From a virus: a stretch of 26,807 nucleotides of DNA. A program made the position numbers and the translations under genes. Location of the stretch: IMG/VR virus record IMGVR_UViG_3300044692_000080, positions 1-26,807 of that record; one strand, written 5' to 3'. Shown one piece after another: positions 7,862-24,937 of this stretch. The notes beneath the pieces were generated by a model. It did not search any database, was not told where the DNA came from, and saw only the letters and a list, made by a program, of their open reading frames with translations. Each line of letters starts with the position of its first letter. The first letter of the stretch is position 1.

Positions 7862-8347
7862 ATGCCACTGCCTACGGCACCTGATACCCTCGCCGTCGCG
7901 CAGGCGATAGCGGGCTACATGGAAGCACTAACCTACACGGGCGGCGCACCAGTCTACAAGATGGTCCAGGTCGGCGAGATCAAAGATGTGACCGATCAGG
8001 TCGTGAACGGCGCGGCGTGCCTGGAGATCTACGGCGGCAGTGACGATTCGCAGCCGTTGGCCTTTGGAGGACCGAGGCAAGATCCACAGTCCTTCTTCCT
8101 GCTGTCGATGGTGAGCCTGGACGATGCGCAATCAGCGGAAGCGTCGATTTTCGCAGTGCGTGATGCCCTGGTTGTGCCACTCAGCACACATATTCGGCTT
8201 GGCGATACGACTGGTGTCATTATCCTGTCAGGCTTCAAACCGCACTCAGGGAAGTTTCTCGATGTCCCACGTAATGGGCAATACCTGAGAGCGCACGTCA
8301 TCGAATTGCTCGTAACGAGTCAGTGGCAAGTCACACTTGCATCGTAG
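7862..8347 (+). CDS. Probable tail terminator / tail completion protein
   Basis: Protein of 161 residues, with AGAGGAAAG ahead of the start. It has an N-terminal helix (APDTLAVAQAIAGYMEAL) and beta strands after it ('ACLEIYGG', 'FFLLSMVSL', 'VIILSGF', 'VIELLVTSQW'), the alternation expected for tail terminator proteins that form the ring at the head-proximal end of the tail tube. The order relative to the HK97 gp10-like gene downstream is somewhat flexible among phages. The assignment rests on size, predicted pattern and position. Confidence 0.5.
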   Translation: MPLPTAPDTLAVAQAIAGYMEALTYTGGAPVYKMVQVGEIKDVTDQVVNGAACLEIYGGSDDSQPLAFGGPRQDPQSFFLLSMVSLDDAQSAEASIFAVRDALVVPLSTHIRLGDTTGVIILSGFKPHSGKFLDVPRNGQYLRAHVIELLVTSQWQVTLAS

Positions 8348-9976: not shown

Positions 9977-10465
9977 ATGCCTAACAATGATATGCCTGAA
10001 ATGATCACAACTGCCAATGAAGCTGAAGCGCGTCAGCATCTCCTCACACGCAAAAAGAAGCGTAAAGAAATATTGCTCCCGATCCCGGAATGGGATATGG
10101 AGGTGCTGCTCTGTTCGCTCACAGGGACAGAGCGCGCTGAATACTTCGCCTATAACAATGCAACGGTTGAGCAGTTCAAGGCGGGAACCAGCGAGTTCTT
10201 CAAGCGGATCTGGTTTGAGCAGGTGAGGCTTGGCTGTCTGCATCCGGTGACGCGCCAACGGATTCTCCAGCCAGCAGACCGGGACGAGTTTATGGATGGC
10301 GATGATGGCGCGGTTATTGAGGCCCTCGCATCCATCATGAGAGAAATCTCTGGACTGAAACCCGAGAGTATTGAGGATACCAAAAAAAAATTGCTCTCGG
10401 GGAGGAATTTCGATACCGCCAGCTTGCCGAACGGTTCCACTACCACAGTAGAGATGAACTCTTAG
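9977..10465 (+). CDS. Tail assembly chaperone, short form (gpG-like)
   Basis: Protein of 162 residues. The ATG at 9977 is preferred because AGAGGGA lies 6 nt upstream; the in-frame ATG at 9971 directly abuts that site. The charged N-terminus ('EARQHLLTRKKKRKEILLPIPEW') and helical body, lacking membrane or signal segments, match gpG-type tail chaperones, which bind the tape measure before tail polymerisation. It sits between tail tube and tape measure genes as expected. It contains an A9 run at 10382-10390 near its end, and a -1 shift there gives the long form listed separately. Confidence 0.75.
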   Translation: MPNNDMPEMITTANEAEARQHLLTRKKKRKEILLPIPEWDMEVLLCSLTGTERAEYFAYNNATVEQFKAGTSEFFKRIWFEQVRLGCLHPVTRQRILQPADRDEFMDGDDGAVIEALASIMREISGLKPESIEDTKKKLLSGRNFDTASLPNGSTTTVEMNS

Positions 10466-22189: not shown

Positions 22190-22819
22190 GTGCGTATCCG
22201 CTGCTTTTTCTTAGAGCCGACTGGGCGCATCCAGGTCAAACTCCGACGCTATGCCCACGAAAAAAAGCGAGGCAATTGCCCGCTTCATCCTGGCAACAAC
22301 TATAGCTATCACGAAGCCTCCACGATCATTGGCAGTGAGCCAGTGGAACGTGATGATCGTGGCTACATTTCCAATGGCATGAAAGCTCCCGAGCCTCACA
22401 GCGATCCACGCTGGCCTGTGCAATGCGTATGTGGTTACACATTTCAGGAGGACGACGAGTGGCAGCGCTTCATCGAGGCCATCTATCGTCGTACTGATAC
22501 TGGCGAGGAAATGACGATTCGTGATGCACCAGCGGGGGCCATGTGGTATGCGCCCTGGCTCGATGATATGTTCGTACCTCAAGGCGAGCATGTCCTCGAA
22601 GTCAAGACGCCTGGCGGTGAGTGGACGGTCGATGGTCAGGCGTCGAACTGTACCATGAAAGATGACTTCAAACAAGAGCGTCATCATTGTTGGGTGCGTA
22701 CCGGGGAACCTCCAAATATCACAGCAGGCAAGGATGGACCAACATGCAGCGCTGGAGCAGGCAGCATTCAATGTGGCTCATATCATGGCTTTCTGCGCAA
22801 TGGCTATCTGGAGGATTGA
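22190..22819 (+). CDS. Cys/His-rich phage protein, unknown function
   Basis: Protein of 209 residues from a GTG start with AGGAG 7 nt upstream. The protein starts 'RIRCFFLEPTGRIQVKLRRY' and contains 'CPLHPGNNYSYHEAS', 'WPVQCVCGYTFQEDDEWQ', 'DAPAGAMWYAPW' and several later Cys residues, so a metal site is likely. I recall similar 'LEPTxRxxxxLRRY...C.CGY.F...DEWQ' proteins in phages of high-GC Gram-positive bacteria, but no function is known to me. A longer form from an ATG at 22130 would begin inside the previous gene and is unlikely. Confidence 0.65.
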   Translation: MRIRCFFLEPTGRIQVKLRRYAHEKKRGNCPLHPGNNYSYHEASTIIGSEPVERDDRGYISNGMKAPEPHSDPRWPVQCVCGYTFQEDDEWQRFIEAIYRRTDTGEEMTIRDAPAGAMWYAPWLDDMFVPQGEHVLEVKTPGGEWTVDGQASNCTMKDDFKQERHHCWVRTGEPPNITAGKDGPTCSAGAGSIQCGSYHGFLRNGYLED

Positions 22820-22852
22820 TGATCCCCACACGAAAGCACAGGAGATGACAAA

Positions 22853-23707
22853 TTGGCTTTAAATATTGTTGACATGGCCTCGCCCAATTACTCCTCGCGA
22901 GACGGGGCACTGGTGCGCTGGGTCATCCTGCACGGTACCGCTGGCTTTGAGACAGCACAGCAAGTAGGCACCTACTTTGGCGAACGAACAAGCCAGGTAT
23001 CGGCGAATTACTGTATAGGCACCGATGGCGTCATCGTGCGTAGTGTGCCAGAGCGCTTTGCCGCCTGGGGAAATGGGGTCATCAGCGGGCCGCCAGGCGT
23101 CGGTGGCGACGGTGTGCATCATGATGCATGGTGGGATGATTGTCCGCAGTGGGGAGGCTTGCCCAACCCGAACCCGGTGACGATCTCCATCGAGCACGTG
23201 AAACCATCGACGGACAACAGCGATATTCTGACCACTGCTCAGAAAAATGCAAGCTTTGCGCTGATCAAAGACATTTGCACGAGGCAACACATTCCCATGC
23301 GCCAGGCCGACAGCGCAGGGGGCATCACGGGCCATTTCTCGATGGACCCCGTGAATCGCAGCAGGTGTCCGGGGCCGTACCCCTGGAATGAGTTGTGGAC
23401 TTTTTTGAAAGGAGCAAGTACCGTGACCCCGAACAAATGGCAGATCGCCGATGCGCAGAAGGAGTGGGCATCGACAGCAGCGCTCTTTGGTGGCACCGCG
23501 CCGTCCTACAGCAGCGGCATCGCGCAAGCCTGGGCACAACGCGTCTATCAGGGGCAGCGGCTCGGCCCGCCAGTGACCACCGAGTATGACAGCACCGATT
23601 GGGGCGGCAACGCGATACGAGTACAACAGTTTGCCAACGCTCGCTGCGAATGGCGCACCGATGGCAGTTCGTGCCGCTTCTTCGATGCACACGGCGAAAT
23701 CGTTTGA
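22853..23707 (+). CDS. Endolysin: N-acetylmuramoyl-L-alanine amidase (Amidase_2 family)
   Basis: Protein of 284 residues from a TTG start with AGGAG 8 nt upstream. Residues about 20-175 match the Amidase_2/PGRP fold: 'WVILHGT' (His27), 'VSANYCIGTDGVIVRSV', 'VTISIEHV' and 'GHFSMDPVNRSRCPG' (His161, Cys172), giving the expected His-His-Cys zinc set. The enzyme cleaves the bond between muramic acid and the stem peptide. The last 90 residues ('WAQRVYQGQRLGPPV', 'WGGNAIRVQQFANARCEW') look like a separate LGFP-like wall-binding domain. No signal peptide is present, so export via the holin is expected. Clear identification of family; the C-terminal domain call is weaker. Confidence 0.9.
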   Translation: MALNIVDMASPNYSSRDGALVRWVILHGTAGFETAQQVGTYFGERTSQVSANYCIGTDGVIVRSVPERFAAWGNGVISGPPGVGGDGVHHDAWWDDCPQWGGLPNPNPVTISIEHVKPSTDNSDILTTAQKNASFALIKDICTRQHIPMRQADSAGGITGHFSMDPVNRSRCPGPYPWNELWTFLKGASTVTPNKWQIADAQKEWASTAALFGGTAPSYSSGIAQAWAQRVYQGQRLGPPVTTEYDSTDWGGNAIRVQQFANARCEWRTDGSSCRFFDAHGEIV

Positions 23708-23717
23708 TCGTCTGGAG

Positions 23718-23737
23718 TTATCCACAAGTTATCCACA
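23718..23737 (+). promoter_or_regulatory. Tandem perfect DnaA boxes
   Basis: TTATCCACA occurs at 23718-23726 and again at 23729-23737, same orientation, 2 bp apart, so starts are 11 bp apart (about one helical turn). Both equal the strong Escherichia coli DnaA box consensus. They lie between the amidase stop and the next gene, whose ribosome binding site AAGGAGG begins 3 bp after the second box. Two exact 9-mers side by side are unlikely by chance in a gene-dense region. A role in DnaA-dependent regulation or replication is inference. Confidence 0.7.
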
Positions 23738-23750
23738 CAAGGAGGCTGTA

Positions 23751-24293
23751 ATGGATTCACAGCCGTTTATCACCGGGGTTATCTCGATAGTTGCGAATGA
23801 GGCCGCTGGCTGGTTGCAACATGCAAAGCTGAAGCCCTGGCAAAACTACATGATTGTGACGATCTTCTTCGTGCTTGCCGTGATCATCAGCGTAGCGTGT
23901 AATGGAGGGCTTACTGGAGACCCCGGCCGCGATCTGGGAATCATCCTTGCTGAATGTGCTGCTATCTTCGCGGTATTAAAGCCCCTCAGAGAGCATGCAA
24001 CAACGGCGTTGCCATCGCCGTTGTCAGGCATTGCTCAGCGCCAGGAGAACCAGCGTGCAGCACAGGAAGAGGCGGCAGCGTGGGCTGCTGCGACGGCTGG
24101 CGTGCCACCCAGAGCCGGCGGTGGCACGATACCGCCACCGCCGCCGGGTATCACAGGGCCGTTGCCACCACAGCCCGGAATGTCAGGTACCTTCAACCAG
24201 CCTCTCAGACCTCGCCAGTTCGTTGAGGATGCACGGCCGACCGTCATAAATCTCCCTACGGTTCCAAAGCCGCCAACGAATCCTCTTCCGTAA
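23751..24293 (+). CDS. Second holin-like membrane protein with Pro-rich tail
   Basis: Protein of 180 residues with a perfect AAGGAGG 7 nt before the ATG. Two membrane segments are visible (about residues 32-52 'NYMIVTIFFVLAVIISVAC' and 61-80 'LGIILAECAAIFAVLKPL'), then a helical Ala/Glu/Gln-rich part and a Pro/Gly-rich tail (about 115-180) with runs of Pro. Two-helix proteins next to an amidase are typically holins. The long proline tail is unusual for one and might contact the wall or other proteins. It is the last gene of the rightward late region. Confidence 0.6.
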   Translation: MDSQPFITGVISIVANEAAGWLQHAKLKPWQNYMIVTIFFVLAVIISVACNGGLTGDPGRDLGIILAECAAIFAVLKPLREHATTALPSPLSGIAQRQENQRAAQEEAAAWAAATAGVPPRAGGGTIPPPPPGITGPLPPQPGMSGTFNQPLRPRQFVEDARPTVINLPTVPKPPTNPLP

Positions 24294-24306
24294 TCCCGCG
24301 TGTCGC

Positions 24307-24347
24307 GACAAAGAGCCATAGCAAGCGAGGTACTATGGCTCTTTGTC
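24307..24347 (+). terminator. Late-operon terminator (15-bp perfect stem)
   Basis: Bases 24307-24321 (GACAAAGAGCCATAG) pair perfectly with 24333-24347 (CTATGGCTCTTTGTC) around an 11-nt loop. The right flank is T-rich (TTCTCT) rather than a clean T run. Located 13 bp after the last rightward gene, it should stop late transcription, and its A/T-rich arms may work in the reverse direction too. Confidence 0.75.
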
Positions 24348-24390
24348 TTCTCTGTGACTTCAGCGATAGCTTGTTGTATTGATATGTACA

Positions 24391-24495
24391 ATGAGTTCTA
24401 TGAAGACATTGAAACGAAAACTACAAAGTTTCCTTGTGATGCTAGCTGTCCTCTGCTATCTCCCGGCTTTCTGGAAGGAGATCAAGGGCGAGTAG
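24391..24495 (+). CDS. Possible tiny membrane peptide in the convergence zone
   Basis: A 34-residue frame 'MSSMKTLKRKLQSFLVMLAV' followed by 'LCYLPAFWKEIKGE': basic N-terminus, a hydrophobic core of about 16 residues, charged end. This looks like a small membrane or signal-anchored peptide. It lies after a terminator and has no clear ribosome binding site, so coding is uncertain. A longer frame 24300-24506 in another phase crosses the terminator and was rejected. Confidence 0.25.
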   Translation: MSSMKTLKRKLQSFLVMLAVLCYLPAFWKEIKGE

Positions 24496-24513
24496 AGCCG
24501 CGATGATAGCCTG

Positions 24514-24639
24514 ATGGTCATTACCGCCTTGTGTGGCTTCACAGGCTGTGTTATCATTGTGTCAAGCCCCTGGCTGGGGAGAACGATGGATCAAATATAT
24601 ATACTGCCTTTGAGACGATGGAGCGGGGAAGACCTGTAG
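24514..24639 (+). CDS. Possible small ORF or small RNA region between terminators
   Basis: A 41-residue frame starting MVITALCGFTGCVIIVSS, then a basic 'PLRRWSGEDL' end, with no good ribosome binding site. The same stretch carries TTGTGT (24529-24534), a 17-bp spacer and TATCAT (24552-24557), which could be a promoter for a transcript of about 125 nt ending at the 24644-24685 terminator. Either reading is weak. Apart from these, the interval 24348-24643 holds nothing I recognise. Confidence 0.25.
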   Translation: MVITALCGFTGCVIIVSSPWLGRTMDQIYILPLRRWSGEDL

Positions 24640-24643
24640 TCAG

Positions 24644-24685
24644 CAAAGAGACCACCGGATAGTAATGTGTTCGGTGGTCTCTTTG
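24644..24685. terminator. Bidirectional terminator between converging operons (14-bp perfect stem)
   Basis: CAAAGAGACCACCG (24644-24657) pairs perfectly with CGGTGGTCTCTTTG (24672-24685), loop of 14 nt. It is 15 bp from the stop of the leftward gene at 24701 and should end leftward transcripts, while the T-rich right flank (TGTGTCT) suits rightward ones. Its outer arms CAAAGAG/CTCTTTG are the same as in the terminator at 24307-24347. Confidence 0.75.
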
Positions 24686-24700
24686 TGTCTATGACGAGGG

Positions 24701-24937
24701 TTAGACGTTACGGGGTGGCCAGTGCCAGCTATGAGGGACCGGCGTTGCGCTGATGTCTATTGCCACATCACGCACGATAGAAACAGGCCTCTTCTCATTG
24801 AGGGTCGTGAACTGATGCAGGGTGACTCTACCATGCTCTGCATCGATGACCTCACTAATGATCGCTGCATGCTTACGACTGTCGGTATCAACATAGATGA
24901 TCGGGTGGCCCAGGCCAAGCCCGGGTATAGTTGCCAT
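24701..24937 (-). CDS. Small early phage protein ('GLGxGHPIxYVD' type)
   Basis: Protein of 78 residues on the minus strand with an ideal AAGGAGG 7 nt before the ATG. It begins MATIPGLGLGHPIIYVDTD and continues with 'HAAIISEV', 'GRVTLHQFTTLN' and 'VSIVRDVAID'. I recognise this as a common short beta-barrel-like phage protein ('GHPVxYVD..G..HAAxV'), usually found near early genes, with no known function. An extended -10 promoter lies just upstream and a terminator just downstream, so it can be expressed alone. Confidence 0.75.
   Translation of the reverse strand: MATIPGLGLGHPIIYVDTDSRKHAAIISEVIDAEHGRVTLHQFTTLNEKRPVSIVRDVAIDISATPVPHSWHWPPRNV

Follow-up and report, generated by a model that had tools for sequence, protein, structure and literature searches.

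The window analyzed here, i.e., the whole of an incomplete virus record of 26,807 bases from an uncultured phage, raises the question of why two exact matches to the binding consensus of the replication initiator DnaA should lie between an endolysin gene and a candidate holin gene, and what they might do there. The features of this region are as follows.

22853-23707, plus strand: Amidase_2 endolysin gene; it starts with TTG and encodes 284 aa, of which the C-terminal domain is conserved (Pfam PF01510, E 1.5e-18; PHROG endolysin/amidase families).
23716-23737, plus strand: perfect 11-bp tandem repeat, AGTTATCCACA twice, the predicted double DnaA box (direct reading, repeat analysis).
23718-23726, plus strand: DnaA box 1, TTATCCACA, exact (motif match).
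23729-23737, plus strand: DnaA box 2, TTATCCACA, exact, 2 bp past box 1 (motif match).
23739-23745, plus strand: AAGGAGG, the ribosome binding site for the membrane-protein gene; one base separates it from box 2 (read directly).
23751-24293, plus strand: candidate holin gene; the 180-aa product is a membrane protein that has two hydrophobic segments and ends in a Pro-rich tail (translation, hydropathy; 43% identical homologue in the related locus L125).
24307-24347, plus strand: 15-bp hairpin directly past the membrane-protein gene, ending in TCTTTGTCTT, a likely terminator of the late operon (fold of -26.2 kcal/mol including flanks, z -4.9).

From the last base of the amidase stop codon, 23707, to the next ATG, at 23751, the gap between the two genes measures 43 bp, half of which is occupied by the repeat. 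A reading made from the sequence only had described two exact boxes 2 bp apart in this gap, and motif and repeat analysis confirmed it: both boxes agree with the consensus (TTATCCACA / TTWTNCACA) at 9/9 positions, and the AG before each TTATCCACA extends the repeat to a perfect head-to-tail 11-mer. Box 2 is separated from the ATG by 13 bases, with AGGAGG starting at 23740. The scan for further clusters that the same reading had proposed was run over the 26.8-kb record and yielded no TTWTNCACA beyond the pair. Chance expectation was modeled with 400 window-sized second-order Markov sequences, for which a single exact box is expected 0.095 times per sequence, while box pairs at most 20 bp apart occurred in 0/400; the analytic expectation for the exact tandem is 1.8e-7 per window.

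The prediction that the repeat is a DnaA-binding element is well supported by the host-type consensus, the preferred spacing and the retention of the pair in one relative. In E. coli, ChIP-seq revealed that DnaA prefers pairs of boxes 2 or 3 bp apart, named the double DnaA box (PMC11317965), that is, two same-facing TTATCCACA-type boxes, and the phage pair falls within this type, both of its boxes being perfect and equally oriented with a gap of 2 bp. The E. coli double boxes are chromosomal and lie, e.g., upstream of mutH, polA and purH (PMC11317965), whereas the phage pair is a predicted site within a late operon.

The same 9-mer forms arrays in genomes of the probable host class. Among cellular sequences, the amidase is most closely related to one in a Ktedonobacteraceae MAG (83% identical), and this one relative points to Ktedonobacteria as the probable hosts. 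In each of five Ktedonobacteria genomes (G034-G038), 23-55 exact TTATCCACA are packed into about 1.3-1.6 kb (L193 2410-3938; L194 2483-4056; L198 2595-3866; L204 1995-3451; L205 2510-4114), with repeated spacings of 10, 11 and 14 bp, the 11-bp spacing including same-strand pairs. In sampled stretches of G036, GC skew stays below zero as far as 2222-2242 kb and lies above zero from 2252 kb onwards, and because the array sits where the skew changes sign, it was taken as oriC, a very box-rich one. Moreover, the TTATNCACNNNTTATNCACA pattern was detected in 13/47 genomes of the class and the reversed pattern in 0/47. The phage thus shares with these oriC arrays the identical 9-mer and the identical 11-bp same-strand spacing, whereas the arrays comprise 23-55 boxes in both orientations and the phage has one lone pair. 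All eight Ktedonobacteria genomes checked for this (8/8) have two DnaA genes (Bac_DnaA_C); those of G036:C1 are located at about 1238 kb and 2704 kb, both away from the box array, and the 20 kb sampled around either gene showed no exact box. Additionally, conserved lone pairs or triples of boxes occur in intergenic DNA distant from the array in Ktedonobacteria chromosomes (L195 2626, L196 2428, L197 2688, L199 2675, L200 2517, L201 2406, L203 3449) and are candidates for DnaA reservoirs or regulated sites.

Furthermore, paired boxes are not peculiar to this phage. Among viral contigs, exact boxes paired on one strand are most often separated by 2-4 bp, and secondary maxima near 12 and 23 follow the helical period, while the reversed-motif control displays a three-base coding rhythm instead. 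Tandem pairs with gaps of 2-3 bp lay within an ORF of at least 150 aa in 38/304 cases, in a set enriched for gap 2; in a less selected viral set, 16/45 pairs with gaps of 2-4 bp lay within an ORF, compared to 79/123 control pairs and 55% of random positions. Given the host arrays, this spacing and intergenic bias in viruses and the preference seen by ChIP-seq in E. coli, DnaA binding is the reading of the repeat with the best support. Whatever their role in lysis, DnaA boxes paired at the preferred gaps of 2-4 bp recur among viral contigs, mostly in intergenic positions. A general association of double boxes with lysis genes was not seen in viral contigs, the single example being the unrelated contig L331: there, a double box with a 4-bp gap (10343-10364) begins immediately past an endonuclease VII gene, with 21 bp between its end and a transglycosylase-like gene, a similar layout with another wall-degrading enzyme.

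Conservation was followed in loci with related amidases. In L125, whose amidase is 52% identical, the 42-bp gap behind the amidase holds TTATTCACGAATTATTCACA in the same register just ahead of the ribosome site, and 16/20 bases (80%) are identical to the window pair as compared to 46% at fourfold sites of the amidase (P = 0.002). The L125 boxes differ from those of the window at positions 5 and 9: both have T as the fifth base, as the TTATNCACA form permits, and the first ends in G. In L125, the boxes adjoin the gene of a membrane protein other than that of the window, whose homologue (43%) follows as the second gene. No box is present in L122, whose amidase is 61% identical, nor is there a TTWTNCACA nearby in five more distant amidase loci with sequence beyond the amidase (L218, L221, L236, L242, L243); therefore, the element appears dispensable in this gene order. 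A search via the tail protein gave 51 loci; seven other loci with an amidase relative came out of it, 1/7 of which has boxes, namely L207, which is the L125 contig. The sequence of L206, whose tail protein is 87% identical, stops short of the amidase. The locus of the 83% identical amidase, L126, was discarded as a test of the gap because it is a cellular gene that stands by itself, no lysis gene following it. As judged from these sequences, retention of the pair is confined to one branch rather than general, and selection is backed by one relative only. Absence from close relatives had been named beforehand as grounds for rejecting the sequence-only reading, and the outcome is divided, with boxes present in L125 and absent from L122.

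Other elements were observed in related gaps and cassettes. In the L122/L124 relative, the gap behind the amidase contains, in place of boxes, two GAACNNNNGTTC palindromes 31 bp apart (L124 6782-6793 and 6813-6824), with 0.15 expected in the locus; these palindromes look like operators. Control of the L122 gap by LexA was considered and not confirmed, as no GAACNNNNGTTC-type motif precedes lexA in any of seven class genomes. In G039, a genome of the Ktedonobacteria class, two near-identical cassettes of an amidase and a membrane-protein gene lie 40 kb apart (G039:C1:5080859-5082096 and 5121046-5122283), probably in two related prophages, and neither has an intergenic box pair.

The gene behind the boxes was described earlier as holin-like. 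Its two hydrophobic segments and its place after the Amidase_2 gene are those of a small membrane protein beside an endolysin and speak for this rather weak label, whereas the absence of any Pfam or PHROG match at E 0.1, and hence of a match to a known holin family, does not; the 180-aa protein may belong to a new holin family. A nucleotide search of phage records gave no match, and protein searches of phage and plasmid records returned distant amidases only and nothing for the membrane protein. An alternative frame for the downstream gene that starts upstream and passes through the boxes (ORF from 23586) was rejected, since L125 has no such frame and a good ribosome site serves the start at 23751. 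The strong hairpin follows directly, and the membrane-protein gene is therefore probably the last of the late operon. A second, very strong hairpin at about 24644-24687 (z -7.7), between the convergent late and opposite-strand genes, is likely a two-way terminator; by eye, a similar inverted repeat is seen behind the late genes of L125 at about 8010-8052.

How could DnaA act at such a site? No sigma-70-like promoter was detected in 22700-24800, and an ordinary promoter plus operator would not fit into so short a gap. In E. coli, DnaA has been described as a roadblock to elongating polymerase within transcribed regions (PMC11317965). The phage boxes likewise lie within transcribed DNA, past the end of one gene and ahead of the next, and differ in that the block is one we infer from position alone. 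Following this, we propose that a dimer of host DnaA would bind the two same-facing boxes, that bound DnaA would slow or stop RNA polymerase arriving from the amidase gene, and that the membrane-protein gene, the candidate holin, would be held down while DnaA stays bound; release would come when active DnaA falls after host initiation, or when many phage genome copies dilute DnaA. A roadblock is the likeliest mode of action because the pair lies inside a co-directional late operon, the gap has no promoter-like sequence and the boxes adjoin the DNA of the ribosome binding site. A genuine double DnaA box predicted to act as a transcriptional roadblock on the downstream gene is our main reading, held tentatively at a probability of roughly 0.4. 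The analysis shows the repeat, its departure from chance, its likeness to the box arrays of the probable host class and its retention in one relative; binding in this host, the roadblock, release by dilution and an effect on lysis timing are what we infer from these. The arrangement suggests that the phage may couple its lysis genes to a signal from host replication. The fuller version, in which DnaA on the double box would block transcription from endolysin to holin, lysis would await the replication state and dilution of DnaA over accumulating genomes would form a copy-number timer, is unlikely. If it were true, lysis timing would be tied to occupancy of a replication-initiator site and the number of phage genomes would itself free the brake. 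The sequence-only reading had proposed that DnaA could repress or time lysis; its premise of predicted DnaA boxes stands on consensus, spacing and the L125 pair, whereas its regulatory part is plausible but weakened by the lack of promoter-like sequence in the gap, a downstream gene that is only a candidate holin and the other relatives without boxes.

The identity of the two 11-mers, as from a recent duplication, might also be due to a neutral course of events, in which chance or capture supplied a single box and an 11-bp slip then duplicated it, with DnaA perhaps binding without consequence. The missing boxes in L122 and the five other amidase loci are in line with this account; it becomes doubtful in view of the diverged L125 pair, which keeps the same register and place and exceeds fourfold-site conservation, in one comparison (P = 0.002). 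That the repeat acts instead as an A/C-rich mRNA leader tuning translation of the next gene, its likeness to DnaA boxes being incidental, would fit the single base between box 2 and the Shine-Dalgarno sequence in the window and the direct contact of the two in L125. We regard it as quite improbable, since neither the window nor the L125 leader is structured beyond shuffles, and neither the exact 9-mer of the host origin nor the preferred 2-bp spacing is predicted by an RNA role.

Two further accounts accept DnaA binding and place its effect in replication. The boxes could titrate or hold DnaA on replicating phage genomes and so affect host initiation, their place in the lysis operon being incidental, a role for which the small conserved intergenic pairs and triples outside oriC in Ktedonobacteria chromosomes and the mostly intergenic position of viral pairs would be precedents. 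With two boxes on each phage genome, compared to about 50 at the host origin, the sink would be weak unless the phage copy number is high, and the position beside the ribosome site and its retention in L125 would be left unexplained, which renders this account improbable. A DnaA-dependent phage origin in the late region, the alternative offered in the sequence-only reading, is suggested by the exact pairing of boxes, a common trait of origins that the host arrays also show. An origin, with several boxes plus an AT-rich unwinding stretch or iterons, was not found in the record: it has just the two boxes (in a record that is incomplete and covers part of the genome), the 151 bp around the pair contain no further repeats, and the flanks are ordinary coding sequence and not AT-rich. 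Because further boxes and repeats are lacking, this alternative is considered very improbable, though an origin may lie elsewhere in the phage genome.

The proposed control of the lysis operon by the double box has a counterpart in Alphaproteobacteria, in which the host cell-cycle regulator CtrA controls phage genes and 'lytic deferment' has been proposed (PMC9437464). DnaA sites showed no uneven distribution in the phages of that study (PMC9437464), and a search of the open-access literature turned up no case of a lysis gene controlled through DnaA boxes. Both here and in the CtrA phages, the phage bears sites, predicted ones in the present case, for a host cell-cycle regulator with a proposed link of lysis to the host state. 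The CtrA phages have many promoter sites each and experimental proof, whereas the present case concerns another regulator and one predicted site, with no promoter seen, ahead of a gene that is only a candidate holin. Host cell-cycle control of phage genes is therefore already known from CtrA, and predicted DnaA boxes at a lysis operon would be a new case whose functional half is putative; if it is true, control of lysis by host regulators would widen from CtrA to the nearly universal DnaA.
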